From Opitutia bacterium (GTDB taxonomy: Bacteria; Verrucomicrobiota; Verrucomicrobiia; Opitutales; Opitutaceae): DNA of 64,000 bases. The notes below the pieces were generated by a model, which worked only from the letters and a program-made list of their open reading frames with translations, was not told the DNA's origin and did not search any database. This document shows, in pieces, positions 7,967 to 44,240 of this stretch. The translations under genes were made by a program, and so were the position numbers. The first letter of the stretch is position 1; every line of letters begins with the position of its first letter. The stretch covers positions 434,001 through 498,000 of the forward strand of contig JACRHT010000016.1 of assembly GCA_016217545.1 (NCBI GenBank). Direction: 5' to 3'.

Positions 7967-9127
7967 ATGAACAACGCCCGGCCCATCACCCTGCTCCAGC
8001 CGGGTCGCATCGCTTTCGGCGCCGGCTGCGTCGCGAACGCCGCGCTCGAGTTCTCCCGCGGACAGCATTGCCGCGCCGTCGTGGTGACCACCGCCGCCCT
8101 CGCCGCCGCGGCCGAGTCGCTGGCGCGGACGTTGCGCGACGCCGACATCGCCACCGAGATTCTCGTCGAACCGGCGGCCGAACCCACCGTCGCCAGCTGC
8201 GAGGATCTGCGCCGCCGCACCCGCGCCGCGCAACCCGACGTCGTTTACGCCCTCGGCGGCGGCAGCGTGCTCGACGTCGCCAAGCTCGCCGCCGCGCTGC
8301 ACGACCGGAGCGAGCCGGTGGCGCAATTCTTCGGCAGCGGACTGGTTCCGCCCCGTCGCACCGCTCTGGCCTGCCTGCCCACCACCGCCGGCACCGGCAG
8401 CGAGGTCTCGCCCAACGCTCTCCTCCTCGACGAAGCCGCGCAGGCGAAGAAGGCCGTCATCAGTCCGGTCCTCGTGCCCGACATCGCCATCGTCGATCCC
8501 GAGCTGATGCGCACGCTGCCTCCCGCGCTCACCGCGACGACCGGCATCGACGCGCTCGCGCACTGCCTCGAAGCCTACGCGAATCTCTCCGCGCATCCGG
8601 TCGTCGACCACTATGCGCTGGAAGGCGTGCGCCTGATCGCGGCCCATCTCCCGCGCGCCGTCGTCGACGGCCACGACATGGCCGCGCGCTCCGCGGTCGC
8701 GCTCGGCAGTCTCTACGGCGGCCTCTGCCTCGGCCCGGTGAACACCAACGGTGTGCACGCCCTCGCCTACCCGCTCGGCGGCGAACATCACCTGCCGCAC
8801 GGCCTTTCGATTGCGCTCATGTTGCCGCACGTCGTCGCCTTCAATTGCGCCGCCTTGCCCGAGCGCCACGCGGCGCTCGCGCGCGCGCTGGGCGCCCCCG
8901 AGAGCGACGACGCGCAGCAAACCGCCGCCGAATTGCCGGCGCGCCTCCGGTCGCTGCTCGCCGCGTGCCGCATCCCGATGGGACTCCAACATCACGATAT
9001 TCCCCGCCACCGGCTCACGCATCTCGCGGAGGCCGGGTTGCTCGTCACCCGCCTGCTGAAGAACAACCCGCGCCCCGTCTCACGCGGCGACGCCATCGCC
9101 ATCTACGAAGCCGCCTACAGCGCATGA
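7967..9127 (+). CDS. iron-containing alcohol dehydrogenase (group III)
   Basis: 386 residues, the usual length for the group III Fe-ADH family. The nucleotide-binding GGGSVLD motif is present, and the four metal ligands can be read as D195 and H199 (GIDALAHCLEAY), H264 and H278 (HALAYPLGGEHHLPHG). Such enzymes reduce short aldehydes (lactaldehyde, glycolaldehyde) or oxidise the alcohols with NAD(P). The stop overlaps the DapA-family gene (ATGA). As the first gene of an acid-sugar operon it most likely reduces the aldehyde released by the aldolase encoded next; that assignment is an inference. Confidence 0.9.
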   Translation: MNNARPITLLQPGRIAFGAGCVANAALEFSRGQHCRAVVVTTAALAAAAESLARTLRDADIATEILVEPAAEPTVASCEDLRRRTRAAQPDVVYALGGGSVLDVAKLAAALHDRSEPVAQFFGSGLVPPRRTALACLPTTAGTGSEVSPNALLLDEAAQAKKAVISPVLVPDIAIVDPELMRTLPPALTATTGIDALAHCLEAYANLSAHPVVDHYALEGVRLIAAHLPRAVVDGHDMAARSAVALGSLYGGLCLGPVNTNGVHALAYPLGGEHHLPHGLSIALMLPHVVAFNCAALPERHAALARALGAPESDDAQQTAAELPARLRSLLAACRIPMGLQHHDIPRHRLTHLAEAGLLVTRLLKNNPRPVSRGDAIAIYEAAYSA

Positions 9128-33048: not shown

Positions 33049-33780
33049 TTAAATTGAAGCGTAGCTGCATTGCGGAGGAACGAGCCCCCCCACGAGCCCT
33101 CCGCCCTCAGTCCTCCGTCTTTCGATCCAGCGGACTCCGCACGCCGAGCCCCGGCCGCATGGGCACAAAACCGAAGCGCACAACGCCTGCCGCTGCCCCG
33201 AAGCGCTCGCCCGCCCCTGCACCGCCAGTTCAGTCAGAAACGCCTGCACCTCGGCCCCGCTCGCCGCATGGGGCGAACGCGGCGCCAGATACGCCGCAAA
33301 TCGGCGGGCCCACGCGCGGTAACTGTATTCCGTGCGCCAGAGCAGTCCGCGCAGACGCATCGTCTTCACCAACGCCCGCTCCCAATCCGGCCCACCCAAA
33401 TCTTGTCCCGCCGGCTTCGGCTCCATCGGACGCCACCGCCTCTCGCCGCGATCAGCCCGCACGCCCTCGCTGCCTCCATCCTCCTCGGCTGCTTCGGCCC
33501 CGGACCGTCCGCTCGCGGCATTCGCTCCGGCATTCGGCGCCTTCCCTCGCGCCGCCTGCACGAACCATCGCAACGCCGCGCGCACGGGCCCGCGGCGCGA
33601 ATTCTCGTGCGCCTCCACATACTGCTTGGCCAGCCTCACCGTTACCGGCACGTGTCGCGTTTTGCAGAACTTGAGCAGGGCGATGACCTCCTGCCGATAC
33701 GACTCCTCGACGGCAGAGCCTAGGCCTGCCGTCGCCAAAACCTCCTTCCAATTCGGAAAAGACAAGGGCGTGGTGTCCAT
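33049..33780 (-). pseudogene. intI: integron integrase, catalytic domain lost
   Basis: The reading frame keeps an N-terminal extra region (FPNWKEVLATAGLGSAVEES...LLKFCKTRHVPVTVRLAKQY) and the core-binding SAM-like domain typical of IntI (MRLRGLLWRTEYSYRAWARR, EVQAFLTELAVQGRASASGQ). Homology stops near 33170; after that the frame runs into unrelated sequence and ends at 33049. The catalytic domain with the Arg, His and Tyr residues is absent, and the 250 bp beyond hold only a repeat. The start at 33780 gives MDTTPLSFPNW; an ATG at 33861 is possible. Orientation, divergent from the array, is canonical. Confidence 0.85.
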
Positions 33781-33861
33781 CTGTTGCGCACCGGCCCTAT
33801 GCGCCCGCAAGTTGAGCCTTACGCCGGCCAGAATCAACGCGCCCAAAGCTCTACTCGACAA

Positions 33862-33958
33862 ATTCGAACGTTGATCTTCATCGGGTTAGCGCTTCCATCC
33901 CCCAACGGGCCACACTGTTGTTATCATCAACTCAGTTACGTTGAATATACTGATCGGC
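33862..33958 (+). other. attI-like primary recombination site and leader
   Basis: Lies between intI and cassette 1. The cassette junction box is GATCGGC at 33952-33958, the same box found at many attC ends. A TATACT at 33946-33951 would make a -10 element directly before the first cassette, but no good -35 is seen at the right distance, so a Pc promoter is only tentative. Confidence 0.65.
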
Positions 33959-33965
33959 GGAAGAG

Positions 33966-34214
33966 ATGAGCGAAGAAGAAAAGAATCGGTCTCGTGATTC
34001 GAGCGTGCTGCTCACGCTGGCTTCAGGTGCATTGTCATTTGTTTTGCTTGGCGTCGCCGTTGCTTCGCTCCTTCGCGGACAAGCAGAGAAGATTTGGGGA
34101 GTCCTTATTTTCGGCATCATCAATGGGCTCATTTGTGTGTTCAGCTGGCTCCGCGCGTATCGTCCGAAGCCGCAAGAGCCGATCCAGGCGGCAGAGACAA
34201 CGCGCGGGAAGTGA
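33966..34214 (+). CDS. cassette 1: small two-helix membrane protein
   Basis: 82 residues. A charged start (SEEEKNRSRD) precedes two hydrophobic helices (VLLTLASGALSFVLLGVAVA and WGVLIFGIINGLICVFSWL). The last 12 residues, EPIQAAETTRGK, are translated from attC 1, whose 5' box falls inside the gene. A purine-rich GCGGAAGAG just after the junction box serves as ribosome binding site. No family recognised. Confidence 0.7.
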   Translation: MSEEEKNRSRDSSVLLTLASGALSFVLLGVAVASLLRGQAEKIWGVLIFGIINGLICVFSWLRAYRPKPQEPIQAAETTRGK

Positions 34215-34311
34215 CCGTAATTCGCATGGCCCAGCTCCGCTCAGCATCTCCTGTAATTCGAAAAGGCTCAATCCACGCTCGCCCGCGCGTGTCTCACCTT
34301 TAACGTTGGCC
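34178..34311 (+). repeat. attC 1 (134 bp)
   Basis: R'' GCCGATC (34178), R' GTTGGCC (34305). Inner arms AGAGACA-ACGCGCGGG and CCCGCGCGTGTCTCA are inverted. R'' is the exact complement of the box that opens cassette 1 (GATCGGC). Confidence 0.93.
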
Positions 34312-34318
34312 GAAGAAA

Positions 34319-34852
34319 ATGTTTCGCCGTCTTCTATCCGTCCTCCTTCCCGTCGCGTTGGTTGGCGCTGCCGAGCCACCGAAGATGAAGCCCATCGTTT
34401 ATCGTGGCGGCATCATCACGTTTCGTGTGCCAGCCACATGGAAGGAAGAGTATGAGGCCGAAGGCGGCGGCACATTCTATGACGACCGGCCCGACAGCGG
34501 CACGCTGCGCCTCAATGTCCTGACTTTCAAAGCACCCGAGGGAAAGCCAGCGGTAGACGGCTATGCTCATTTCGCTGCGACACCGCTGAAGGAGGGCGAA
34601 CGGCTCATCCGGACGCCGAATGGCGACGGCCTGAAGTTGTCCAAGAAGTCAGCGGAAGAAAGAGGGACCAAGATTGATTTGTATTCTTGGCAGCTCGCAC
34701 ACAGTGCGCCCCCGGAGAAGTTCTATATCGCGTCCTTCACTTGGACGATACTTGCTTCCCAAAGCAGTGATCGGAAGTTTCAGCAGGAGATGGCCTTTCT
34801 TATCGATGAGATTTCACGCGCACAGTTTCACCCCGACCTCGGAAAGCTCTGA
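34319..34852 (+). CDS. cassette 2: secreted protein of unknown function
   Basis: 177 residues: a signal peptide (FRRLLSVLLPVALVGAAEPP), then an alpha/beta domain of about 150 residues (YRGGIITFRVPATWKEEYEA, GTLRLNVLTFKAPEG, FYIASFTWTILASQ). The fold outline is reminiscent of PsbP/DUF1795-like single-domain proteins, but this is only an impression. Stop just before attC 2, so no attC tail. Own purine-rich RBS (CGAAGAAA). Confidence 0.7.
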   Translation: MFRRLLSVLLPVALVGAAEPPKMKPIVYRGGIITFRVPATWKEEYEAEGGGTFYDDRPDSGTLRLNVLTFKAPEGKPAVDGYAHFAATPLKEGERLIRTPNGDGLKLSKKSAEERGTKIDLYSWQLAHSAPPEKFYIASFTWTILASQSSDRKFQQEMAFLIDEISRAQFHPDLGKL

Positions 34853-34855
34853 AGG

Positions 34856-34925
34856 GGCCAACCAGGCGGCACAGACAACTCGGGGGAGCTGCGCTCCCCT
34901 CCGTGTCTGACCTTGGACGTTGGCG
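34856..34925 (+). repeat. attC 2 (70 bp)
   Basis: R'' GGCCAAC, R' GTTGGCG. Short class with core hairpin GGGGAGC-TGC-GCTCCCC and arms ACAGACA/TGTCTG. R'' is the exact complement of GTTGGCC, which opens cassette 2. Confidence 0.92.
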
Positions 34926-34929
34926 AAAG

Positions 34930-35373
34930 ATGAAATCATTAGAACGAGCCACATCATGGATGGACTCGACTCCAGTCTTGGCATTCTTTTTCGCGGTTTC
35001 GGTCTTCGGTGTTTCGATGGGCACGTGGGTTGTCGTCATGCAGTGGCTCGAAGGAAAAGAAGCTTGGGCGGCGTTTCCCTTCATCGCCCTTTGGTCATGG
35101 GGAGCGTGGAGCTCGTTCAAGACATGGAAGATCAAGAAAGAGGCCGAATCTTCTGAGAGGAAGCGATTGTCTGCAGTGGTGGCAGAGATCGTTCTGGTTG
35201 GCACGCCCCTCAAAGACGCTGTTCAGTCAGCTCGGGATCGCCTGAGCGCTGAAGGCCTGACCCGCTACCGACAGCTTTCTAGTCGAGCAATGAGTGCGGA
35301 GTTCGACATGGGTCCCCGCATGATACGGATCGTATCCGTTGATGGAAATGTCTCGGGTTTTGATGTCGTTTGA
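34930..35373 (+). CDS. cassette 3: two-helix membrane protein with soluble C-terminal domain
   Basis: 147 residues. Helices at TPVLAFFFAVSVFGVSMGTW and AWAAFPFIALWSWGAWSSF, then a basic stretch (KTWKIKKEAESSERKR) and an ~80-residue cytoplasmic domain (DAVQSARDRLSAEGLTRYRQ). Start set at 34930 because upstream codons lie in attC 2. No family recognised. Confidence 0.7.
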   Translation: MKSLERATSWMDSTPVLAFFFAVSVFGVSMGTWVVVMQWLEGKEAWAAFPFIALWSWGAWSSFKTWKIKKEAESSERKRLSAVVAEIVLVGTPLKDAVQSARDRLSAEGLTRYRQLSSRAMSAEFDMGPRMIRIVSVDGNVSGFDVV

Positions 35374-35377
35374 AGAC

Positions 35378-35463
35378 GCCGATCCAGCCGCCACAGCCCA
35401 ACGCCCTTGCTCTCACCGAAATCGCCCATGATAAAGCAGCATGGCTCACCTTAAACGATCGGC
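35378..35463 (+). repeat. attC 3 (86 bp, atypical core)
   Basis: R'' GCCGATC, R' GATCGGC. The interior differs from other sites (no long GC hairpin; ACAGCCCAACGCC...GGCTCACC arms weak). It is the only site whose R'' does not match the box opening its own cassette (GTTGGCG). Confidence 0.75.
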
Positions 35464-35468
35464 GGAAG

Positions 35469-35714
35469 ATGTTTCGTTTCCACAAAGCGCTTTGGGGCAC
35501 ACTCGCCACTGTTCTGTCTTGCGCGGCCATTTACTGCGTAGTTGGCGGTCGGCCGGAAGAAGCTACGTGGGCCGAGCGCCTCAGGGCTTCCGGCGGGTTT
35601 CTGGCCTTCGCTCTTCTTTTCGCAGCCGGCTTCCAGCGCGAGTTCAAGCTGGAGCGAAAAGAGAAAGCCAAGAAAGAGCCAATCCAGCCGCCAGAGGCAA
35701 CGCGCGGGAAGTGA
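35469..35714 (+). CDS. cassette 4: small two-helix membrane protein with attC tail
   Basis: 81 residues. Helices ALWGTLATVLSCAAIYCVVG and SGGFLAFALLFAAGFQ flank a short acidic loop, followed by a basic stretch (REFKLERKEKAKK) and the attC-encoded tail EPIQPPEATRGK. The frame is open upstream through attC 3, but the ATG at 35469 follows the purine-rich GGCGGAAG at the expected spacing. Confidence 0.7.
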   Translation: MFRFHKALWGTLATVLSCAAIYCVVGGRPEEATWAERLRASGGFLAFALLFAAGFQREFKLERKEKAKKEPIQPPEATRGK

Positions 35715-35811
35715 CCGTAATTCGCATGGCCCAGCTCCGCTCAATATTTTCCGTCGTTCAAAAGGGCTCACTCCACGCTCGCCCGCGCGTGTCTCACCTT
35801 TAACGTTCGGC
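35678..35811 (+). repeat. attC 4 (134 bp)
   Basis: R'' GCCAATC (one mismatch to the complement of GATCGGC opening cassette 4), R' GTTCGGC. Long class, arms as in attC 1. Confidence 0.92.
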
Positions 35812-35827
35812 AGAAGAAAAGACCACT

Positions 35828-36061
35828 ATGCAAGAACCTTCCCCTGCTCCGCTGCTAGCGCAGTTGGCTCCCCTTATCATAGTCTGCGCCGGCCTAGCGT
35901 TTGTGCTAGCTCCTATCGCCAGAAGAAAGGGCCGGTCTCCGCTGCTAGCTCTACTGGCCTTCGTCCCGCTGGTGAACATGATGTTCGCCATTTGGCTCTG
36001 CTCTCTCACCGACGCTGCGGTCCTCAAAGACATCGAGATGCTGAAACAGACCCGAAGATAA
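35828..36061 (+). CDS. cassette 5: small two-helix membrane protein
   Basis: 77 residues. Two helices (LAQLAPLIIVCAGLAFVLAP, LLALLAFVPLVNMMFAIWL) separated by the basic turn IARRKGRSP, then a short charged tail. The layout resembles minimal superinfection-immunity or PLD-N-like membrane proteins, without a firm match. Stop just before attC 5. Confidence 0.68.
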   Translation: MQEPSPAPLLAQLAPLIIVCAGLAFVLAPIARRKGRSPLLALLAFVPLVNMMFAIWLCSLTDAAVLKDIEMLKQTRR

Positions 36062-36067
36062 GAAAGA

Positions 36068-36201
36068 GCCGATCCAGTCGGCAGAGACAACGCGCGAGAA
36101 GTGACCGTAATTCGCGTGGCCCAGCTCCGCTCAGCATCTCCCGCTTGCCCAAAGGGCTCACTCCACGCCCGCCCGCGCGTGTCTCACCTTTAACGTTGGG
36201 C
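36068..36201 (+). repeat. attC 5 (134 bp)
   Basis: R'' GCCGATC (one mismatch to the complement of GTTCGGC), R' GTTGGGC. Long class. Confidence 0.92.
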
Positions 36202-36206
36202 GAAAC

Positions 36207-36494
36207 ATGGAGCCAGTCTTTCCATCACGGGTTGAGTTTCGTTTCGGCATCAAAGGCCGTGGCGTCGCCATCGATCCCGGTGTTCCCTACGAGCCCGCTA
36301 CGCACAGAGTCTATATTGGCGACGAGTTAGAGATCCGACGACCCGATGGCTCGGCTATCTCCACGAAAGTCAGCGGCCTAGAGATGGGCGGTAACCCGAA
36401 GAAGAAGTCATGTTCGATTATTCTTCCGGCAAACGTCGCCGAAGAAGAGATTCCCATCGGGTCGGAAGTCTGGCAAATGACTCGTAGCCGATGA
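36207..36494 (+). CDS. cassette 6: small soluble beta-rich protein
   Basis: 95 residues, mostly beta strands (VEFRFGIKGRGVAIDPGV, VYIGDELEIRRPDGSAISTK, SCSIILPANVAEEEIPIGSE). The GDELEIRRPDG...KVSGLEM stretch looks like the beta-barrel domain II of EF-Tu-type proteins, a weak resemblance. ATG five bases after the R' box; stop before attC 6. Confidence 0.65.
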   Translation: MEPVFPSRVEFRFGIKGRGVAIDPGVPYEPATHRVYIGDELEIRRPDGSAISTKVSGLEMGGNPKKKSCSIILPANVAEEEIPIGSEVWQMTRSR

Positions 36495-36502
36495 AGAAAG
36501 AA

Positions 36503-36568
36503 GCCCAACCAGCTGCCAGTGCCAATGTCGGTGCTGCGCACCGCCATGGCACATCGTAATCGTTGGGC
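36503..36568 (+). repeat. attC 6 (66 bp)
   Basis: R'' GCCCAAC, R' GTTGGGC, both canonical. Core hairpin GGTGC-TGC-GCACC. R'' is the exact complement of the opening box of cassette 6. Confidence 0.93.
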
Positions 36569-36574
36569 AAAACC

Positions 36575-37183
36575 ATGAAGCTCCTCCGCGTTTTCGCTTC
36601 TTTGTTTGTCGCTAGTAGTGCGCTGGCCGCGCCCACACCGAACGACAAAGAAGTGCTCGTCCGCGGTTGGAAGAATGAAGAGCTGCGTCGAATCCTCGAT
36701 GACTTCAAAGCCATGTATCGAGACCGTCTGTCTCCCGATTACGGCGTGGTAGTGCACCCATTGCCCGAAGGTGCTATTCGCCTCACATTCCCGGCAGACC
36801 TTCCGCCCCCATTTTTCGCGTGGCTGGTGAATTACATCCGCTACCCAAAAGACTTCGACCTAAGCACGCGTTCGATCCTTGTGCTTGGAAGGACCACGCT
36901 GAGTTCCGTTTTCGAGCCTCCCGAAAAGAAGATGATCAGTCAGCGGGCCGCGTTTTACGTTCCGGCCGATGATCACGAGTATGATTTGGTTTTCGTGAGA
37001 GTTGGCGTTGCGACCTACGAGCTTTCGTTTGCCAGAGGACAGTGGAAGCTTGTTTCGAATTCTCGTCTGCCTCCTGGCCTCGACGCACTGATGAAAGAAG
37101 AGCCCAACCAACACCTGAGGGCAACTGAGCAAGGCCAAAGTGATATATCAGGCGGCGGAACGAAGGAGAGTGGCGAGCGGTGA
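36575..37183 (+). CDS. cassette 7: secreted protein, C-terminus fused to IS sequence
   Basis: About 202 residues. Signal peptide (LLRVFASLFVASSALAAPTP), then a ~170-residue periplasmic domain (LRRILDDFKAMYRDRLSPDY, PEGAIRLTFPADLPPPFFAW, EYDLVFVRVGVATYELSF). The frame enters attC 7 (EPNQ) and then continues for ~24 residues into the IS110 insertion, ending at 37183, so the natural C-terminus is lost. No family recognised. Confidence 0.65.
   Translation: MKLLRVFASLFVASSALAAPTPNDKEVLVRGWKNEELRRILDDFKAMYRDRLSPDYGVVVHPLPEGAIRLTFPADLPPPFFAWLVNYIRYPKDFDLSTRSILVLGRTTLSSVFEPPEKKMISQRAAFYVPADDHEYDLVFVRVGVATYELSFARGQWKLVSNSRLPPGLDALMKEEPNQHLRATEQGQSDISGGGTKESGER
37102..37110 (+). repeat. attC 7, R'' end only, disrupted by IS110
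   Basis: R'' GCCCAAC followed by CA, then sequence unlike any attC. It complements GTTGGGC opening cassette 7. The IS110-family element begins 2-4 bases past the box. Confidence 0.8.
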
Positions 37184-38690
37184 GTTTCGTTGGGCGAGGG
37201 CGGCGACGTAGCGCGCCTCGTCGTAGGGCACGCGGTCATGCCAGCAGCGCCAGAGCACACGGATCCATTTGAACGCCAAGCCACGCAGGATCGTCTGGTG
37301 ATGTTTGCCGGCGCGCTTTTGTTGGAGGTAATACGCCTTCGCCCAGGCGCACTTTGGGATCGTTTGGCCAGCCCACTCGACGAAGGTTTGGCGGAGGAAC
37401 TTGGGTGCGTTCCACCGCCAGTGCGTCCAGATCTGCCGGCCGCTCTTCTCGCGCACCGGCGCAACGCCGCCGTATTTTTGCAGGCTCGCGGCGCTGGGAT
37501 AGCGCTCCCGGTCGGTGCCGAAGGCGACAAGCAATCTCGGCGCGAGCACCGGCCCTGCGCCCGGCAAACGCACGAACAACTCCGCCTCCGGATGCGCGGC
37601 GAAGCACGCGGTGATGCGTTGCTCGACCTGTTCGATGTGCGACTGCAACGGACGCAGCACGGCCACGAGCAATCGGATCTGCATCACCGCGGGATCGAGG
37701 ACGGCTCGATCCGTGGTCAACGCGCACGCCACGGCAATGCGGTCCAGGCGCTGCGCGATGACTCCCGGTCGGCGGCTGCGGTGTTCGGTGTAGAAGGCGC
37801 GCAAGCTCGCCGGCTTCGCCCGCTGGAGCAACGCGAGCTCCGGCCAACGCTCGAGGAAGTCGAGCGCGAGCGGCGTCCACAGGTCATCGCCGCACAGCTC
37901 CAGCGCCTGCGGGAACATCGTCTTGAGCGTAGAGCGCAGCTCGCACGACAGCTGCGTGCGACGATCGACCGCACCGCGACGCACTTCGTTGAGCGCGGCC
38001 AGCTCCCGCGTCGCGGCGGTGTCCAGGCGCAGCGCGCGCAACTGCTCGCGGTTTTGCGCCAGGATCCGGAGCAACACCACGGCGTCCGGCAGATCGTCCT
38101 TCGCGCCCGAAGGAACGAAGGCTTTGCGGAAGCGTTCGCTGGTGGCCGGATGAACCGGATAGATCGTCAGCCACGGATAATCGACCAAGGCGTGCATGAC
38201 CGCGCTGCGGCCCGCCTCGATCGCCAACGCGACGGGCTGCGCCGCAAAGCGTTCGCCCAACTGGTGCAGCCAGTCGTGGAGCGCTTCCGCGCTGCCCACG
38301 ATGTGGCCGGTCTCCGTCTCTGCGCCCACGCCGAGTGCGAAGGCATGTTCTTCATCGCCCCAGTCCAACGCGACGAGGGCCGCATAGTCGGTCGTCTTCA
38401 TGGTGTTCGTTTTTGGGATGGAGAGCCGGGCTGCAGACTGTATCGTGCGGGACGTGAGAAACGTCGGCACCTGAGGATGCATGACCGGACTCATGAACTG
38501 ACCGGCCGCGATCGAGATTTGGTTCGGATTCCTGCGAAAAGAAACTCGCCAGATGTTCGTGTCGCGACCGGTCAGCAATTAACCGCTTCCGCCCCTCAAC
38601 CCAAGATGAGTCTAGCGAACGAAAGCCGTGCGGCGTGCCCCCGGTCCACTCCAGCTTGGGGCTTCCGCGGACCGGAACCACGCCGCACTG
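37111..38690 (-). mobile_element. IS110-family insertion sequence (ends approximate)
   Basis: Contains one transposase (37148-38401, minus strand) and a ~175-nt structured upstream region. IS110 elements lack classical terminal inverted repeats, so ends cannot be fixed; the left end is set by the broken attC 7, the right end lies between 38575 and attC 8 at 38695. CACCTGAGG occurs at 37112-37120 and 38468-38476; whether this marks a boundary is unknown. Confidence 0.75.
37148..38401 (-). CDS. IS110-family transposase (DEDD recombinase)
   Basis: 417 residues, full length for the family. The RuvC-like N-terminal domain shows the DEDD acids D13 (ALDWGDEE), E62 (AIEAGRS), D103 and D106 (KDDLPDA). 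The C-terminal Transposase_20 region has LPGAGPVLAPRLLVAFGTD, YGGVAPVREKSGR with a candidate serine, and FVEWAGQTIPKCAWAKAYY. It starts at 38401; the frame remains open to 38578, but that part lies in the structured region. Gene looks intact, so the element may be active. Confidence 0.93.
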   Translation of the reverse strand: MKTTDYAALVALDWGDEEHAFALGVGAETETGHIVGSAEALHDWLHQLGERFAAQPVALAIEAGRSAVMHALVDYPWLTIYPVHPATSERFRKAFVPSGAKDDLPDAVVLLRILAQNREQLRALRLDTAATRELAALNEVRRGAVDRRTQLSCELRSTLKTMFPQALELCGDDLWTPLALDFLERWPELALLQRAKPASLRAFYTEHRSRRPGVIAQRLDRIAVACALTTDRAVLDPAVMQIRLLVAVLRPLQSHIEQVEQRITACFAAHPEAELFVRLPGAGPVLAPRLLVAFGTDRERYPSAASLQKYGGVAPVREKSGRQIWTHWRWNAPKFLRQTFVEWAGQTIPKCAWAKAYYLQQKRAGKHHQTILRGLAFKWIRVLWRCWHDRVPYDEARYVAALAQRNSPLATLLRSAA

Positions 38691-38694
38691 GAAC
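38402..38694 (-). ncRNA. putative IS110 bridge RNA region upstream of transposase
   Basis: About 290 bases without a gene. IS110-group elements carry a bridge RNA in the segment 5' of the recombinase. Here a 13-bp stem with one mismatch is visible: TGACCGGCCGCGA (38499-38511) pairs with TCGCGACCGGTCA (38562-38574) around a 50-nt loop. The part from ~38590 to 38694 may be the tail of a decayed cassette 8; no ORF is convincing there. Confidence 0.45.
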
Positions 38695-38755
38695 ACCGAT
38701 ACAGCCGCCAGAGCCAACGGCCCCAAGCGGCCGTGGCTCATCTTGATCGATCGGT
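38695..38755 (+). repeat. attC 8 (61 bp)
   Basis: R'' ACCGATA, R' GATCGGT. Core GGCC-CCAAGC-GGCC region with AGAGCCA/TGGCTC arms. Shortest complete site of the array; its cassette body was lost or replaced by the IS110 insertion. Confidence 0.85.
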
Positions 38756-38764
38756 GGAAGAAAG

Positions 38765-39181
38765 ATGCCATCCCAGAGAAAACTCGTAATCTATCTCGCT
38801 TGTGCTGTTAGCGGATTCGCTCTGCTGGCTGCCGTTTTTCGGGAGCGTCTAGTCGAAGTCGCTCTTCTGGTGTTTTTCGTGTGCGTATTGGCAGATGGTC
38901 TCATCGACGGTGCCCTTACCTACGGGATGCGTAGTGCGAAGAGATTATATCGACGGAAGGAGAATCCGGTAGCCTATTGGCTTATCGCGGCATTCTGGTG
39001 CGCCCTTATTGTAACGATGGGCGCCATGCTCCTCCGAGGCGCACCCAGAAGAAGAGCCGATCCAGCCGCCAGAGACAACGCGCGGGAAGTGACCGTGATT
39101 CGCATGGCCCAGCTCCGCTCCGCATCTCCAGTTGCCCCAAAGGGCTCACTCCACGCTCGCCCGCGCGTATCTCACCTTTAA
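38765..39181 (+). CDS. cassette 9: three-helix membrane protein with long attC-encoded tail
   Basis: 138 residues. Helices LVIYLACAVSGFALLAAVF, LVEVALLVFFVCVLADGLID and AYWLIAAFWCALIVTMGAML, then residues ~96-138 are translated from attC 9 in a frame other than that giving the EPIQ tail (RADPAARDNAREVTVIRMAQ...). The stop TAA at 39179 is only two bases before the R' box. No family recognised. Confidence 0.65.
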   Translation: MPSQRKLVIYLACAVSGFALLAAVFRERLVEVALLVFFVCVLADGLIDGALTYGMRSAKRLYRRKENPVAYWLIAAFWCALIVTMGAMLLRGAPRRRADPAARDNAREVTVIRMAQLRSASPVAPKGSLHARPRVSHL

Positions 39182-39189
39182 CGTTGGGC
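39056..39189 (+). repeat. attC 9 (134 bp)
   Basis: R'' GCCGATC (one mismatch to the complement of GATCGGT), R' GTTGGGC. Long class; translated almost end to end by cassette 9. Confidence 0.92.
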
Positions 39190-39195
39190 AAAAAT

Positions 39196-39633
39196 ATGCC
39201 ACGCGACGCCGCCACCTTAGTCAGCGAACTTCGTAAGTTCACCGCGGACGACTTCGATTACATGAAGGGTGCCAAAGGCCCAGAACGCCTTTATGCGCTT
39301 TGTGAAGAAGTGGAGGCTCTGCTCGAGCCGATGTCCATTTTTCCGGAGTTCTTTGCGCTCATCGAGCGCCTTTCAGATTCCGAGTTGGGCACCCCGGGTC
39401 CGCTTGTGCACACCATGGAGAAGCACAGCGGCCACTATGAGCAGTTTCTCGCAGAATCCCTGAAGAGGAAGCCCACGGATCTCACAGTCTGGATGGTGAA
39501 TCGCATCCTGAATGGAGAACCCGCTGATTCGGCTTTCTGGATGGATCAGCTTTCTACCGCAGCTGAGCATCCCTCGGCGACCCCGCTCGTGAAGGAGCAG
39601 GCGCTGCACTTCATCGAGTTTCAGAAGAAATGA
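39196..39633 (+). CDS. cassette 10: helical soluble protein, possibly immunity-like
   Basis: 145 residues, acidic and helical (LVSELRKFTADDFDYMKGAK, LYALCEEVEALLEPM, LGTPGPLVHTMEKHSGHYEQ, TDLTVWMVNRILNG). The GTPGPLVHxxE...Y...L..SL.R.PT...WM.NRILN pattern is like HEAT-type immunity proteins of polymorphic toxin systems; no toxin gene is next to it. Start at 39196 after R'. Confidence 0.68.
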   Translation: MPRDAATLVSELRKFTADDFDYMKGAKGPERLYALCEEVEALLEPMSIFPEFFALIERLSDSELGTPGPLVHTMEKHSGHYEQFLAESLKRKPTDLTVWMVNRILNGEPADSAFWMDQLSTAAEHPSATPLVKEQALHFIEFQKK

Positions 39634-39640
39634 AGAAGAA

Positions 39641-39707
39641 GCCCAACAAGCGGCCAGAGCCAATGTCGGTGCTGCGCACCGCCATGGCTCATCACTGAAC
39701 GTTGGCC
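39641..39707 (+). repeat. attC 10 (67 bp)
   Basis: R'' GCCCAAC exactly complements GTTGGGC opening cassette 10; R' GTTGGCC. Core GGTGC-TGC-GCACC, arms AGAGCCA/TGGCTC; closely related to attC 6 and attC 16. Confidence 0.93.
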
Positions 39708-39712
39708 GGAAG

Positions 39713-40117
39713 ATGAACTCCCGTAGGCGAAAGCTTCTAGTCGGTTTCGGAGTGTGCGGAGCCCTGTTTCTTGCAGTTCGAGCCGTTGCGCTGGTTCCCT
39801 CGATCCAAGACTCGCTCTGCCGGCTGATGTCGCGTGCCGTGTATCGGGACAGCCCGACCGCTGTCGCTGCTCTTCTCGTCGCTGGCGCGAGCCCGAATCG
39901 CTCAGTTCACGGCAGCACACCTGCGATACATGCGGCAGCCGCTCTGGATCGGGTCGCCATTCTTAGGCTACTGCTCGCCGTCGGAGCCGACCCAAACCTA
40001 AAGACAAAGTTTGAGGTCACACCGCTTTGGGAAGCCGAAAATCGAAAAGCAGAAGAAGCAGTTCGGCTATTGCGGGCCGCTGGTGGCTACGCCTATATCA
40101 GCCCCAACGCTCCATGA
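39713..40117 (+). CDS. cassette 11: membrane-anchored ankyrin-repeat protein
   Basis: 134 residues. An N-terminal helix (LLVGFGVCGALFLAVRAVAL) anchors two to three ankyrin repeats: DSPTAVAALLVAGASPNRSV, GSTPAIHAAAALDRVAILRLLLAVGADPN split across the second, and EVTPLWEAENRKAEEAVRLL. Ankyrin proteins mediate protein contacts and occur as immunity or inhibitor proteins in bacteria. Stop before attC 11. Confidence 0.78.
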   Translation: MNSRRRKLLVGFGVCGALFLAVRAVALVPSIQDSLCRLMSRAVYRDSPTAVAALLVAGASPNRSVHGSTPAIHAAAALDRVAILRLLLAVGADPNLKTKFEVTPLWEAENRKAEEAVRLLRAAGGYAYISPNAP

Positions 40118-40124
40118 AGAAAGA

Positions 40125-40194
40125 GGCCAACCAGGCGCCACAGACAACTCCGGGGAGCTGCGCTCCCCTCCGTGTCTGAGCTCAATCGATCGGC
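40125..40194 (+). repeat. attC 11 (70 bp)
   Basis: R'' GGCCAAC exactly complements GTTGGCC opening cassette 11; R' GATCGGC. Core GGGGAGC-TGC-GCTCCCC, nearly identical to attC 2. Confidence 0.93.
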
Positions 40195-40200
40195 GAAAAG

Positions 40201-40566
40201 ATGCATCCCGTTGCAGGCATCCTTGAGGTCGAGATCGCGAAGGCTGGCTGGCACGTGTCTCGGAAAGAAGAACCAGATGTTTGGTGGACGGATGGGGCCT
40301 GGGTCATCGAGTCTGGCGACGCTTCGGCTGTTCTGACTTTTCTCGTGGACCCACAGGCAGACGTGCATCGACGGAAGAAAGGCGAGGCGCTGTGGGCGGT
40401 GAAGGCGTCGGCGACTGCGCCCGCCCAATGGCAAGGCAGCACGGGTGAGGTATCTCTGACTCTTGGGAAGAATTGGCGGGAGCGTATCGGAGAGTTCATT
40501 CGGAGCCTAAATCGCTTTCGGACCAAAGAGCCGATCCAGCCACTAGAGACAACGCGCGGAGTTTGA
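40201..40566 (+). CDS. cassette 12: soluble protein with attC tail
   Basis: 121 residues; alpha/beta, no signal peptide (VAGILEVEIAKAGWHVSRKE, TDGAWVIESGDASAVLTFLV, TGEVSLTLGKNWRERIGEFI). Ends in the attC-encoded EPIQPLETTRGV. Its central part has a layout similar to cassettes 14 and 17. Function unknown. Confidence 0.66.
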   Translation: MHPVAGILEVEIAKAGWHVSRKEEPDVWWTDGAWVIESGDASAVLTFLVDPQADVHRRKKGEALWAVKASATAPAQWQGSTGEVSLTLGKNWRERIGEFIRSLNRFRTKEPIQPLETTRGV

Positions 40567-40663
40567 CCGTCACTCGCATGGCCCAGCTCCGCTCAGCATT
40601 TGCCGTTGCTCAAAAGAGCTCACTCCACGCTCGCCCGCGCGTGTCTCACCTTTAACGATCGGC
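40530..40663 (+). repeat. attC 12 (134 bp)
   Basis: R'' GCCGATC exactly complements GATCGGC opening cassette 12; R' GATCGGC. Long class. Confidence 0.93.
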
Positions 40664-40672
40664 GGAAGAAAG

Positions 40673-40954
40673 ATGAAGCGCCTTGCCATTGCACTGTTTT
40701 CCACCGGCTGGCTCGTTCCAGCGTGGCTCGGAGTGAGCAGCATCATGACTATTCTGGACGCAGAAGTGTGGCCGCTGCTGCGAGGCGGACATCCGGCCAA
40801 CAGCTTTCCCTTTGTTGGCTTCGGCACGCGCTGTTTTGCGATTTCGTTTCTGTGGCTCGCTACGGTGATCGTTTTCTGGAGCTGGCAGCTTGCACCGCTG
40901 GTCTTGGCGAAGAAAGAGGCGATCCAGCCACTGGAGACAACGCGCGGAGTTTGA
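40673..40954 (+). CDS. cassette 13: small two-helix membrane protein with attC tail
   Basis: 93 residues. Helices LAIALFSTGWLVPAWLGVSS and CFAISFLWLATVIVFWSWQL; the loop between holds EVWPLLRGGHPAN. The C-terminus AKKEAIQPLETTRGV is attC-encoded with one change (EA instead of EP, following the R'' variant GGCGATC). RBS-like GGAAGAAAG before the ATG. Confidence 0.68.
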   Translation: MKRLAIALFSTGWLVPAWLGVSSIMTILDAEVWPLLRGGHPANSFPFVGFGTRCFAISFLWLATVIVFWSWQLAPLVLAKKEAIQPLETTRGV

Positions 40955-41051
40955 CCGTGATTCGCATGGCCCAGCTCCGCTCTGCATTTCCCGTTCTTCA
41001 AAAGGGCTCACTCCACGCTCGCCCGCGCGTGTCTCACCTTTAACGATGGGC
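40918..41051 (+). repeat. attC 13 (134 bp)
   Basis: R'' GGCGATC (one mismatch to the complement of GATCGGC), R' GATGGGC. Long class. Confidence 0.92.
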
Positions 41052-41065
41052 GAAGAGAGTCATCC

Positions 41066-41374
41066 ATGAAGAGAGCCGACGCATATCCGATCTTGGTCCA
41101 AGAGCTCAAGCGTTGGCGCATACTGCCGAAGAAAGAGTTACTTGGGTATGTCGGCCAAAAGCCATCACCTCGGGCAGTTCGCATCGGAGAAGAAGAAGTT
41201 AGTGTCGAAGTCGAAGTCGGTTGGGCTGACGATCATCAGACCCGTGTGTGCGTCACGGCTATCGCGAATGGACCAAGCCATTGGCGGCTTGAGCGACTTG
41301 AAGAGAAGATCACGCTGCGCATAGCAGCAGAAGAAGAGCCCATCCAGCCGTCAGAGACAACGCGCGGAAAGTGA
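41066..41374 (+). CDS. cassette 14: small soluble protein with attC tail
   Basis: 102 residues. Helical start (ADAYPILVQELKRWRILPKK), then strands EEEVSVEVEVGWADDHQTRV, CVTAIANGPSHWRLERLEEK. Ends with attC-encoded EEPIQPSETTRGK. GPSHWRLERL resembles GPAHFRIIRR of cassette 17. Unknown function. Confidence 0.66.
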   Translation: MKRADAYPILVQELKRWRILPKKELLGYVGQKPSPRAVRIGEEEVSVEVEVGWADDHQTRVCVTAIANGPSHWRLERLEEKITLRIAAEEEPIQPSETTRGK

Positions 41375-41471
41375 CCGTAAATCGCGTGGCCCAGCTCCGC
41401 TCAGCATTTTCCGTTTCTCAAAAGGACTCACTGCACGCTCGCCCGCGCGTGTCTCACCTTTAACGATCGGC
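41338..41471 (+). repeat. attC 14 (134 bp)
   Basis: R'' GCCCATC exactly complements the unusual GATGGGC box opening cassette 14; R' GATCGGC. Long class. Confidence 0.93.
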
Positions 41472-41478
41472 GGAAAGA

Positions 41479-41733
41479 ATGAGCGCAGCGACCGACAATC
41501 CCGACATTAAGAAAAGATGGCCGAGATGGCTGCGTGTGTTTTTGTGGATGGAAGCCGTCATTGGTGTGTTCGTGTTGGCCGCGGTATTTGCCGAAACACC
41601 AGCTCAGCAGTTACGCAACGCCGTCATTGTCGGAGCAGTTGCTTACGGCCTCTATCGATGGTTGTGGAAGCAAGGCGACCAGAGGTCGGAGAAAGAGCCG
41701 ATCCAGCCACTAGAGACAACGCGCGGGAAGTGA
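41479..41733 (+). CDS. cassette 15: small two-helix membrane protein with attC tail
   Basis: 84 residues. Charged N terminus (TDNPDIKKRWPRW), helices LRVFLWMEAVIGVFVLAAVF and AVIVGAVAYGLYRWLW, then SEKEPIQPLETTRGK whose last 12 residues come from attC 15. Unknown function. Confidence 0.68.
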   Translation: MSAATDNPDIKKRWPRWLRVFLWMEAVIGVFVLAAVFAETPAQQLRNAVIVGAVAYGLYRWLWKQGDQRSEKEPIQPLETTRGK

Positions 41734-41830
41734 CCGTAATTCGCATGGCCCAGCTCCGCTCAGCATCATCAGTTTTTCAAAGGGGCTCACTGCACGCTCG
41801 CCCGCGCGTGTCTCACCTTTAACGTTAGCC
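41697..41830 (+). repeat. attC 15 (134 bp)
   Basis: R'' GCCGATC exactly complements GATCGGC opening cassette 15; R' GTTAGCC. Long class. Confidence 0.93.
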
Positions 41831-41836
41831 AAGAAG

Positions 41837-42211
41837 ATGACCACCGTAGGAACACGCGTAGTTCTCACCGAAGACGAGGGGCGCAGGCTGTTCAAAGAGC
41901 AGCTACCGCTTTCGGGCACTGTCGAGCGGGAGATTGTCTCCATCGACGGGAGTCGATGGTCGCTTCTCGCTCTCGATCGCTCCTTCGACTACCAAGTGCA
42001 AGATGCGCAGACGAAGGCTTTCCGCGGATTTGAAGTGAAGAGGCTCTTGATTCGCTCTCGCTGGAGTGGCTATTCCGTCGGTGGCTCAGTGCCCACATCG
42101 GTGTTTGTGCTGATCGCTGGCGACGAACGCCTGTTCGACGAAGAAAAGATCGATCCAAAGAAATTCTATTTCGAAGCATGGGCCATGTGCGAAAATGAAA
42201 AGAAGGGCTAA
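41837..42211 (+). CDS. cassette 16: soluble protein of unknown function
   Basis: 124 residues, alpha/beta, no leader (VVLTEDEGRRLFKEQLPLSG, VEREIVSIDGSRWSLLALDR, SVPTSVFVLIAGDERLF). Acidic with a lysine-rich end (CENEKKG). The stop TAA lies inside the R'' box of attC 16, so the gene uses the whole cassette body. Confidence 0.68.
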   Translation: MTTVGTRVVLTEDEGRRLFKEQLPLSGTVEREIVSIDGSRWSLLALDRSFDYQVQDAQTKAFRGFEVKRLLIRSRWSGYSVGGSVPTSVFVLIAGDERLFDEEKIDPKKFYFEAWAMCENEKKG

Positions 42212-42272
42212 CAAGCGTCCAGAGCCAATGGCGGGGCTGCGCCCCGCCATGGCTCATCACTGAACGATCGGC
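42206..42272 (+). repeat. attC 16 (67 bp)
   Basis: R'' GGCTAAC exactly complements GTTAGCC opening cassette 16; R' GATCGGC. Core GGCGGGGC-TGC-GCCCCGCC, arms AGAGCCA/TGGCTC. Confidence 0.94.
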
Positions 42273-42281
42273 GGAAGAAAA

Positions 42282-42620
42282 ATGAAGATTACCGACTTCG
42301 CAGACATAACCTACGGCGTCATCGAGGGAACCGACTTCGAGGACTACATCCCGAGCTTGTGCCTACCCGGCAAAAACAAGATTAAGGCGCTTCAGGGCAT
42401 CCCCAAAGAAGAAGAGAGCAATATTCGAGAGATCGCATTGGATTGGGCCACCAATTCCGCCGACGAAGCCGAAGAGTTCTTAGTCGCATTTCGTGAGGGT
42501 CCAGCGCACTTCAGGATTATCCGTCGATCCGATGGCGCGTTCGAAGAAGCCCTTTTCCCCGCTCAGAAGGCCGATCCAGCCGGCACAGACAACGACCGGG
42601 CTGCGCCCGGTCGTGTCTGA
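42282..42620 (+). CDS. cassette 17: small soluble protein ending in attC
   Basis: 112 residues, acidic (ADITYGVIEGTDFEDYIPSL, EEESNIREIALDWATNSADE, EFLVAFREGPAHFRIIRRSD). The last ~17 residues (ADPAGTDNDRAAPGRV) come from attC 17. Weakly similar in layout to cassette 14. Unknown function. Confidence 0.64.
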   Translation: MKITDFADITYGVIEGTDFEDYIPSLCLPGKNKIKALQGIPKEEESNIREIALDWATNSADEAEEFLVAFREGPAHFRIIRRSDGAFEEALFPAQKADPAGTDNDRAAPGRV

Positions 42621-42635
42621 CCTCAATCGATCGGC
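42570..42635 (+). repeat. attC 17 (66 bp)
   Basis: R'' GCCGATC exactly complements GATCGGC opening cassette 17; R' GATCGGC. Core GACCGGGC-TGC-GCCCGGTC, arms ACAGACA/TGTCTG. Confidence 0.93.
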
Positions 42636-42643
42636 GGAAGAAT

Positions 42644-43030
42644 ATGAAAATCCACCACATCCTTTTGTCTCTCGGATTTATCGCTGTCGTGGCGTTCGCT
42701 GCCGAGCCGACGCCAGCACCACCAAAGGTGTCAAAAGAAGACGCCGCGAAGCTAGAAGAAGAAAAGAAGACGTGGCCCAAGACTGTGGACGAAGCAGTCA
42801 CGCGCATCCTATCGACGATGCCAGAAAAAGACCGGAAGATCGTCAGGGACACGGCGGAAGATGACCTCATCCAGTTTCACCACGGCTGGGGCACGGGTAT
42901 TCGGAATAGCTTTGGCTTATGGCGTGGAAACAAGGCCCTCATGGAAGACTGCAAGTCGGATCACCCCGACGATGCATCGATGGTCATTATCTTTGCCGTC
43001 TGGAAGCGGCTACAGAGTGAAAAGAAATGA
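42644..43030 (+). CDS. cassette 18: secreted DUF6794-like protein
   Basis: 128 residues. Signal peptide (IHHILLSLGFIAVVAFAAEP), a Lys/Glu-rich linker, then a compact helical domain: TWPKTVDEAVTRILSTMPEK, AEDDLIQFHHGWGTGIRNSF, GLWRGNKALMEDCKSDHPDD, SMVIIFAVWKRL. The DLIxFHxGxGxxIRNxFGLWxGN and HPDDASMVII patterns match the DUF6794 type as I remember it. Role unknown. Confidence 0.78.
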   Translation: MKIHHILLSLGFIAVVAFAAEPTPAPPKVSKEDAAKLEEEKKTWPKTVDEAVTRILSTMPEKDRKIVRDTAEDDLIQFHHGWGTGIRNSFGLWRGNKALMEDCKSDHPDDASMVIIFAVWKRLQSEKK

Positions 43031-43034
43031 AGAG

Positions 43035-43101
43035 GCCGATCCAGAGCACTACAGACAACGACGGGACTGCGCCCCGTCGTGTCTGACCGCAGTCGCTGGG
43101 C
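43035..43101 (+). repeat. attC 18 (67 bp)
   Basis: R'' GCCGATC exactly complements GATCGGC opening cassette 18; R' GCTGGGC is a further variant of the GTT triplet. Core GACGGGAC-TGC-GCCCCGTC with one mismatch. Confidence 0.9.
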
Positions 43102-43119
43102 AGAATAAAGAAATTTACC

Positions 43120-43443
43120 ATGACAAAAACGTTAAGAGCGAAGCCATCCTTGGTCTTCCTGCCCTACATCGCAAACGTCGGGCTCTACCTTTTCCTCCTG
43201 CTGCGTGGCGCGCGGGGCACTGGCATTTTTATCAGCGCGTTGATGGCAGCCGGAGGCCTCACCTTTCTCTATTTTATCATCAAGAAGGGATTTGTTCTGG
43301 GACGAGGCGGGCATTACTCGATAGACGGAAAGCCAAATGCATTTTGGACGAGCGCGGCGCTATGCTTTTGCTGGTATCTGGTGGTCACGCTCGTGGCTGT
43401 CGGGTTCTATTTCCAAGATCGCGCTCTCGGCATCATCAACTAG
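43120..43443 (+). CDS. cassette 19: three-helix membrane protein
   Basis: 107 residues. Helices LVFLPYIANVGLYLFLLLRG, GIFISALMAAGGLTFLYFII and WTSAALCFCWYLVVTLVAVG, with a basic loop KKGFVLGRGGHYSIDGKP. Unknown family. Stop before attC 19. Confidence 0.68.
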   Translation: MTKTLRAKPSLVFLPYIANVGLYLFLLLRGARGTGIFISALMAAGGLTFLYFIIKKGFVLGRGGHYSIDGKPNAFWTSAALCFCWYLVVTLVAVGFYFQDRALGIIN

Positions 43444-43457
43444 GCCATGAAGAAAGA

Positions 43458-43527
43458 GCCCAACCAGTCGGCACAGACAACTCCGGGCAGCTGCGCTGCC
43501 CTCCGTGTCTGACCTCAAACGTTCGGC
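43458..43527 (+). repeat. attC 19 (70 bp)
   Basis: R'' GCCCAAC (one mismatch to the complement of GCTGGGC), R' GTTCGGC. Core GGGCAGC-TGC-GCTGCCC, arms ACAGACA/TGTCTG. Confidence 0.92.
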
Positions 43528-43545
43528 AAAAGAGACGCGCGCACC

Positions 43546-43803
43546 ATGAATCCAGAGGCTCTCGCTTCGTTGTCACCCGAAGAGAAGAAGGAAGTAAGTG
43601 CGCTCCGGAAGCAGTTCATTGCCGCGGTGAAGAAGACCAATCTCGGCGATGGCTCGGCGTTCGCGCGCCATTTTCAGATCAAAGAAGAAGCTGCATTCTT
43701 TGTCTGCTCCGACGGCAGTTCGTCACTTCCTGGGATCAAGACGAGATCAAGGAAGTCCCTGGAAGTTCTATTCGATGACGCCGTGGCAAACTACGGCAGA
43801 TAA
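43546..43803 (+). CDS. cassette 20: small soluble helical protein
   Basis: 85 residues, charged and helical at the start (ALASLSPEEKKEVSALRKQF) followed by FQIKEEAAFFVCSDGSSSLP and a C-terminal helix KSLEVLFDDAVANYGR. No leader or membrane segment. Unknown family. Confidence 0.64.
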   Translation: MNPEALASLSPEEKKEVSALRKQFIAAVKKTNLGDGSAFARHFQIKEEAAFFVCSDGSSSLPGIKTRSRKSLEVLFDDAVANYGR

Positions 43804-43809
43804 AATGGA

Positions 43810-43819
43810 GCCGAACCAG
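43810..43819 (+). repeat. attC 20, R'' end only, disrupted by IS110 remnant
   Basis: R'' GCCGAAC exactly complements GTTCGGC opening cassette 20, followed by CAG and then IS110-related sequence. Confidence 0.8.
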
Positions 43820-44086
43820 TAGGAATGAGAAGGCGTGAGAGGTCCGCGTCGCCGTAGAAGCGCGCGCGGTTCTACTCTCCGCCCTATGAACACAAACGAA
43901 CTGACGATTGGATTGGATCTCGGGGACCGCCGGCATCACGTGTGCGTCCTCAGTGCCTTGGGTGAGATCATCGCCGAGGAAATTTTGCCCAACACCCGCG
44001 AGTGCCTCAGCGCCTACGCCGCGCGTTATCCGGGTGCGATGATCATCATGGAGACGGGCACGCACAGTCCGTGGGTCTCGCGGCTA
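43820..44086 (+). mobile_element. IS110-family remnant
   Basis: Left end of an IS110/IS1111-type element of a different subfamily from that at 37111-38690; only ~66 bp of upstream sequence and the start of the transposase survive. Confidence 0.75.
43886..44086 (+). pseudogene. IS110-family transposase, N-terminal fragment
   Basis: 67 codons of a DEDD transposase: D11 in GLDLGDRRHHVCVL, E56 in IIMETGTHSPWVSRL. The sequence breaks off at 44086 where a cassette fragment begins; the remaining catalytic Asp residues and the Transposase_20 domain are missing, so the gene is dead. It points rightward, opposite to the intact IS110. Confidence 0.88.
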
Positions 44087-44207
44087 TCTGCACCTGATCA
44101 GGGCGAAGCAGGGAGATCGCTATCAGATCGGAAACAATCGAGGGCGCATCAACGGCTGGGTCGGCCTGAATGGCATCTTCGGCCGTTGCGTCAGCGTGGA
44201 AAAATGA
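44082..44207 (+). pseudogene. cassette 21: C-terminal fragment
   Basis: 41 codons in frame with a stop just before an attC-like R'' box, encoding GYLHLIRAKQGDRYQIGNNR, GRINGWVGLNGIFGRCVSVE. The first half is missing, replaced by the IS110 remnant. Unknown family; basic and glycine-rich. Confidence 0.6.
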
Positions 44208-44210
44208 AGA

Positions 44211-44240
44211 ACCCAACCGACCGCCTTCTGTGGCCGCCGG
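44211..44240 (+). repeat. attC 21, partial
   Basis: R'' ACCCAAC (fits RYYYAAC) followed by CGACCG and, after a short spacer, CGGTCG. No R' box is seen before the GH112 stop codon at 44256, so the array ends in a truncated site. The hairpin could double as a terminator. Confidence 0.6.

Follow-up and report, generated by a model that had tools for sequence, protein, structure and literature searches.

The window analysed here, 64,000 nucleotides of contig JACRHT010000016.1 (positions 434,001 to 498,000, forward strand) from the Opitutia bacterium assembly GCA_016217545.1, contains a chromosomal Opitutaceae integron that was very probably immobilised by a deletion inside its own integrase gene, intI, and that survives as a fixed array of gene cassettes, that is, as a cluster of attC sites lacking integron-integrases (CALIN) with an intI remnant. 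The locus stands apart by the use of GAT in place of GTT in the attC cores and by an integrase family that carries one domain more; in most other respects it follows the known pattern. The attC anatomy, the match of cassette starts to their own ends, the attI junctions with GTT and GAT cassettes, the comparison with the same locus in a relative and the deletion itself could all be read from the sequences. A preliminary description of this DNA, made from the letters alone, did not include the broken intI, the GAT triplet in about half of the R' boxes or the insertion sequences (IS) of IS110 type within the array and at its end.

Contig C16, which holds the window, belongs to a 17-contig genome of 5.09 Mb (99.88% complete), designated G000; G002, G004 to G008 and G012 are genomes of the same genus, and L022 is the intI locus of G002. 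A GDSL/CE12-like esterase bounds the array on one side and a GH112 phosphorylase on the other, both supported by Pfam (GDSL and GH112). Between these flanks we found attI, 19 same-strand cassettes, 18 complete attC sites and two half-sites, with an IS110-family element interrupting the array and an IS110-type fragment following its end. The run of small genes (33953-43816) consists of 19 genes, all on the + strand with repeats between them, and the single orientation of the 18 complete attC sites and 19 open reading frames (ORFs) is that of the array of a complete integron. GC content is 55-60% in the array versus 66-70% in the flanks. No sigma-70-like site that could serve as the cassette promoter Pc was detected in 33500-34700, with a consensus that may not apply to this phylum. 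The integron features are as follows.

33123..33155, - strand: intI C-terminal tail GLGVRSPLDR, out of frame; 32/33 nt identical to G002
33156..33176, - strand: intI deletion junction; ~676 bp lost (whole catalytic domain), frame shifted; L022 2100-2795 missing in DNA alignment
33177..33780, - strand: N-terminal part of the intI remnant; extra, probably SAM-like domain (residues 1-84), linker, canonical core-binding SAM-like domain
33917..33952, + strand: attI, GTTATCATCAACTCAGTTACGTTGAATATACTG; crossover after G33952
34178-34311, 34856-34925, 35378-35463, 35678-35811, 36068-36201, 36503-36568, + strand: complete attC sites (motif scan, position weight matrix, folding)
38695-38755, 39056-39189, 39641-39707, 40125-40194, 40530-40663, 40918-41051, + strand: complete attC sites (same methods)
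41338-41471, 41697-41830, 42206-42272, 42570-42635, 43035-43101, 43458-43527, + strand: complete attC sites (same methods)
37102-37108, + strand: half-site R'' at the IS junction
43810-43816, + strand: half-site R'' at the array end

The preliminary description had proposed about 20 cassettes facing away from intI, 18 complete attC sites and three partial ones. The orientation held, the 18 complete sites were confirmed (34178 to 43527) and 19 cassettes are present, each with one ATG-started ORF on the + strand, but only two half-sites exist (37102 and 43810), the third junction being attI.

attC cores are described by the consensus RYYYAAC / GTTRRRY. The sites of the window follow a single plan: R'' of 7 nt, a spacer of 9-10 nt, L'' (SAGNC-A-AN, with one unpaired A), a central stem of 14-87 nt, L', a second spacer of 9-10 nt and R'. 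The unpaired A of L'' (T on the bottom strand) is present in nearly all sites, and L'' and L' pair to form the bottom-strand hairpin expected of attC. A position weight matrix (PWM) trained on sites from the window array and related arrays recovered 17 of the 18 sites with scores of 26-75, where the highest score among 30 shuffled 12-kb sequences was 11.3, and the eighteenth (42206-42272), which has a 10-nt spacer, was recovered by motif scan. The attC-like fold on which the preliminary description depended was found as hairpins in 8/10 short sites (61-86 nt), where bottom-strand z scores were -1.7 to -5.3 (-1.2 and +0.4 in the other two), and as an L stem in nearly all 134-nt sites. A covariance model of the short attC kept only 12 pairs because the two R boxes of an attC in place stem from different cassettes, and per-genome counts from it are lower bounds. 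Rfam gave no attC match in the window, only two chance hits. A structure-only scan that ignored the L-box motif did not separate the sequence from its shuffles, which scored equally high, and motif scan plus PWM were used instead.

An attC within an array is a hybrid, with R'' to L' from the upstream cassette and R' from the downstream one; the excised circle joins the start and end of one cassette. The R' box at the start was perfectly complementary to the cassette's own end R'' in 13/19 cassettes, versus 4/18 for attC sites taken in place (permutation p<=1e-5), and the same own-end complementarity was perfect in 10/10 cassettes of the second array of the window genome (L017, on contig C17), 28/31 of the G025 array (L053) and 23/26 of the G032 array (L055). 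The genes of the array behave like cassettes that were once circular. In the active state, an IntI with the extra N-terminal domain would have inserted circular cassettes at attI and, if the single-strand mechanism applies, would have cut the folded bottom strand of attC between core bases one and two (G^TT or G^AT); a crossover at this position would make the first bases of a cassette match its own last R'' box. In the canonical core, GTTRRRY, the crossover likewise falls between G and TT (PMC3518468, PMC12901181).

Relative to G002, the intI of the window keeps the first ~204 and the last 12 codons. The N-terminal remnant matches PF13495 (5e-15) and shares 71% amino acid identity with residues 1-204 of the intact G002 IntI, and tblastn placed the tail at residues 432-443 (92%). 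No PF00589 domain, as a functional integrase would have, is left, and no TIGR02249 match in the whole 17-contig genome reaches the 265-bit cut-off for integron integrases. The preliminary designation as a sedentary integron is therefore right for the past, given a real cassette array with turnover, but not for the present: with the catalytic domain deleted and no TIGR02249 match over the cut-off, the cassettes are now fixed and would be movable only by an integrase supplied in trans. Since the genome has no integrase over the cut-off, the locus is operationally a CALIN (a cluster of two or more attC sites that lacks an integron integrase), here with 18 attC sites and an intI remnant. The second array, in L017 (region 8955-9095), lies at the end of contig C17. 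It follows an MmgE/PrpD-like gene and begins with the attI found in the window; ten cassettes are present, but intI is entirely absent. Contig C4 holds further attC sites, both at its start and near its position 150,000.

Some observations weigh against an immobilised chromosomal integron. The core triplet differs between the two ends in 3/19 cassettes, and only 1/8 of the 134-nt attC sites reaches a z score of -2 against shuffles, though the L stem forms in nearly all of them. In addition, the assembly is in 17 contigs, two of which carry attC repeats at a terminus (C17 at its end, C4 at its start), and a gap could hold an intact intI. It is conceivable that the array is still mobile, with an intact IntI, unassembled here or carried by another element, shuffling cassettes in trans: own-end matching is still near perfect, the arrays at the ends of C17 and C4 mark likely assembly gaps, and CALIN numbers are overestimated in draft assemblies (PMC9024848). 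However, the assembly is 99.88% complete without a TIGR02249 match over the cut-off, both attI-anchored arrays of the genome are without intI function, lost in different ways, and intI is also broken in other species of the genus. We therefore regard continued shuffling as rather unlikely.

About half of the cores in the window genome depart from GTT. When core-triplet positions were kept neutral in the scan, the arrays of this genome gave 12 GAT and 13 GTT cores among 28 scored sites, so that the canonical GTT consensus does not hold for them while the rest of the attC definition does. The corresponding GAT/GTT counts were 3/4 in G002, 2/1 in G004, 1/4 in G007 and 12/19 in G032, versus 0/33 in G025 and 0/10 in G017. 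A GAT start was found in 9/19 window cassettes, and all nine of these carry ATC at the other end; GAT starts were joined to ATC ends in 5/10 cassettes of L017 (5/5 of its GAT starts) and in 11/12 cases in G032.

The attI junctions point in the same direction. In 11 integrons of the family, a conserved block, next to the intI remnant in the window, ends in ACTG at the first cassette; the common sequence reads ...AATATACTG or AATAACACTG and diverges right after ACTG, with TT following in six and AT in five. The attI block of the window is also present in L017, G002 and G004, and a variant, GAATAACACTG, occurs in G007, G012, G016, G017, G032 and G035. GAT cassettes lie at attI in G007 and G002, both of which have full-length integrases. 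Because GAT is matched by ATC on the same cassette and is found directly at attI, GAT cassettes are natural substrates. As judged from these sequences, this group has GAT as a natural core, not as a result of decay, and GAT cores would be cut about as well as GTT. Between the intI start and attI we also observed an inverted repeat, which reads GTTGAGCTTT...AAAGCTCAAC in G002/G004 and has a different sequence in G007, G012 and G035. It lies at 33790-33860 in the window, 1430-1480 in L022, 8950-9000 in L017 and 20-170 in the G007 locus (L073), and could possibly represent accessory IntI sites or an intI operator.

The death of the window integrase and the mismatched R boxes of many in-place attC sites would also suit an account in which GAT cores are mutated, dead GTT cores of a decaying array. 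Decay, however, would not change both ends in a compensating manner, and GAT starts pair with ATC ends in 9/9, 5/5 and 11/12 cases in the window, L017 and G032; nor does it agree with GAT cassettes at attI beside the full-length integrases of G007 and G002. We consider this account improbable. Tolerance of IntI1 at the second core base has been reported in secondary or off-target sites (PMC10127599; GNT in PMC8024014). We found no description of GAT cores in natural attC sites, or of their use by about half of natural cassettes, in a literature search outside which most subscription papers fell, so this is a weak sign of novelty. A tentative explanation is that in some Opitutaceae the integrases, with their additional and probably SAM-like domain at the N terminus, naturally use GTT or GAT as equal substrates, with core identity set by end-to-end complementarity instead of a fixed GTT; the extra domain could relax or extend site recognition.

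That the repeats are an ordinary intergenic family, similar to repetitive extragenic palindromic (REP) sequences, can be dismissed almost entirely: eight sites do form one 134-nt family (82-88% identity), but R/L box spacing is constant in 61-134-nt sites with unrelated central parts, there is one gene per repeat on a single strand, attI and what is left of intI lie at one end, repeats of this type adjoin intact IntI in relatives, and the own-end complementarity of the cassettes and the syntenic locus described below refute it.

The G007 locus is syntenic with the window, with flanks (GDSL esterase, GH112) of 89-92% DNA identity. Its IntI is full-length, and its cassettes, unrelated to those of the window, come with at least five attC sites; the assembly breaks within the array. 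Apart from the attC sites there is no match between G007 cassette genes and the window in DNA, and at the protein level none except attC-encoded tails. The cassette turnover expected by the preliminary description is thus seen as entirely different cassettes between the same flanks. G006 has the same flanks (88%) and an intI fragment, and no attC there; more distant GH112 loci have no flanks in common with the window. Because G007 has different cassettes at the same flanks and G006 a broken intI without attC, turnover followed by decay can be traced at this locus: by sequence comparison, the integron kept its position while cassettes turned over, and decayed at least twice. The proposed polysaccharide-utilisation setting stands for the Pfam-supported flanks, which are the integron's site in this sub-lineage, but nothing ties the cassettes to polysaccharide use.

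Within the genus, full-length intI is present in G002 (two), G007, G008 and G012. The fragments cover residues 1-204 and 432-443 in G000, 1-83 in G004, 2-132 and 415-443 in G005 and 115-288 in G006. They lie at 2281-2529 of L060 (G004), 1190-2054 of L061 (G005) and 9761-10282 of L074 (G006), and that of G005 is an internal deletion keeping both ends. IntI of G000 and G007 (L073 492-1838) are ~50% identical, versus ~91% DNA identity in the flanks, so that intI may have been replaced by another copy while its locus stayed the same.

The intact Opitutaceae IntI relatives examined carry ~80 conserved residues (SF..W...L ... FL.hCK ... ReALRWF) ahead of the canonical IntI start, followed by a variable linker. 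The intact G002 protein belongs to the IntI family (TIGR02249, 365 bits for a cut-off of 265; PF00589 present), and its last 305 residues align to 2A3V (1e-73). Homologues with the extra domain are mostly from Verrucomicrobiota, where they are widespread, with some Lentisphaerae and Desulfobacterota records. The domain matched PF13495 in 8/29 members (best 2.9e-5) and was modelled as four helices with the same layout as the core-binding domain; its structural matches were weak, with a Z of about 5 for the core-binding domain of lambda Int. Foldseek with the domain alone gave nothing significant (E>2), hhalign of its profile against the canonical core-binding domain was not significant (E 0.08), and comparison with sequences of solved structures returned chance ferritin matches only. 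The predicted fold suggests that it is likely a second SAM-like core-binding domain. No literature description of a longer verrucomicrobial IntI was found, most subscription papers being outside the search. Two Opitutales integrase ORFs (L119 2083-4005 and L120 1589-3562) encode 641-658 residues, ~340 of them before the WRTE motif.

Like the CALIN reviewed previously (PMC8618304, PMC9024848), the window has attC sites, 18 in this case, without a functional intI, and deletion of a recognisable intI is one proposed CALIN origin (PMC8618304). It differs in its number of sites, 18 where CALINs average almost 6 (PMC9024848), in having GAT in half of its cores, and in keeping attI and both intI ends, through which the cause of integrase loss is still visible. 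With the sedentary chromosomal integrons of the Vibrio and Xanthomonas type it shares a chromosomal site that is the same in related species, attC families typical of the taxon, small proteins of mostly unknown kind and cassette turnover between species, whereas its integrase is dead, its array smaller and its host in the Verrucomicrobiota. This phylum was already known to carry integrons (PMC8618304) and was not among the taxa modelled in PMC8352920. Compared with IntI1 and VchIntIA (2A3V), the intact G002 relative is similar in its 365-bit TIGR02249 score and 305-residue alignment to 2A3V, and the intact Opitutaceae relatives examined differ by the ~80-residue N-terminal domain and linker.

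Two IS110-type sequences are associated with the array.

37109..38694, - strand: IS110-family element; transposase 37148-38401 on -; PF01548/PF02371; exact ends inferred
43820..44240, + strand: second IS110-type sequence, a truncated fragment, MNTNELTIGLDLGDRRHHVCV...; begins 3-4 nt beyond the last R''; right limit approximate; family by inspection only

The element that interrupts the array has ~290 nt of noncoding region upstream of its transposase gene, is inserted just after the R'' of the attC of cassette C7, scores below the NF033542 cut-off and is single-copy; no further copies that could define its ends were found in the genome, and relatives are at most 65% identical. Both sequences (37102-37120; 43810-43825) start 1-4 nt after an attC R'' box, and these two insertions suggest that attC targeting by an IS110 element, with its 5' noncoding region, is possible. 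The IS1111-attC group (Tetu & Holmes 2008, cited in PMC11187229) similarly has a DEDD transposase of the IS110/IS1111 superfamily at one attC end; the window IS differs in that its noncoding region precedes the transposase gene, the arrangement of IS110 and not of IS1111, and a position next to attC is seen in two insertions only.

The cassettes each carry one ORF starting with ATG and coding for 77-202 residues (n=19).

33953..37108, + strand: cassettes C1-C7
33966-34214, + strand: C1 ORF
34319-34852, + strand: C2 ORF
34930-35373, + strand: C3 ORF
35469-35714, + strand: C4 ORF
35828-36061, + strand: C5 ORF
36207-36494, + strand: C6 ORF
36575-37183, + strand: C7 ORF as called, extends into IS
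38695..43816, + strand: cassettes C8-C19
38765-39181, + strand: C8 ORF
39196-39633, + strand: C9 ORF
39713-40117, + strand: C10 ORF, ankyrin (Pfam)
40201-40566, + strand: C11 ORF
40673-40954, + strand: C12 ORF
41066-41374, + strand: C13 ORF
41479-41733, + strand: C14 ORF
41837-42211, + strand: C15 ORF
42282-42620, + strand: C16 ORF
42644-43030, + strand: C17 ORF, DUF6794 (Pfam)
43120-43443, + strand: C18 ORF
43546-43803, + strand: C19 ORF

The gap between R' box and ATG is 4-18 nt and mostly purine-rich (GGAAG, GGAAGAAAG), in agreement with the ribosome-binding sites proposed right after R' in the preliminary description, and its view of the products as mostly undescribed also held: in a Pfam scan of 18/19 ORFs (all but C19; C3, C8 and C9 with slightly different ends), only C10 (ankyrin) and C17 (DUF6794) passed a cut-off. 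PADLOC and PHROGs searches, ten cassettes each, returned nothing credible, and a transmembrane-like stretch is present in 10/19 ORFs. The product of cassette C17 has a homologue in another genus (76% identical), with an attC-like site with a GAT core directly after it; C15 has no relative among 150 family genomes, and cassette proteins had no match in the other arrays compared except attC-encoded tails. Such tails are seen in C1, C4, C11, C12, C13 and C14 (34178-41733), unrelated proteins that end inside a 134-nt attC in the same frame with the common tail EPIQ..ETTRGK/V. This frame is used by 6/7 ORFs entering a 134-nt attC, and two more ORFs in L017 end in ...TTRGM after compensating one-base insertions. 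The C8 ORF (38765-39181) crosses a whole 134-nt attC in another frame (~45 residues), which is open in several other copies.

A single genus shows this integron with an intact integrase in G007, immobilised in G000 and erased in G006. The loss of intI took different forms in G000, G004, G005 and G006, and the series is useful for the question of why integrases go while cassettes stay. In two genera, GAT takes the place of GTT in about half of the cassettes, with a matching change at the other end; detection tools limited to GTT may overlook such arrays, which are a natural system for asking what IntI reads.

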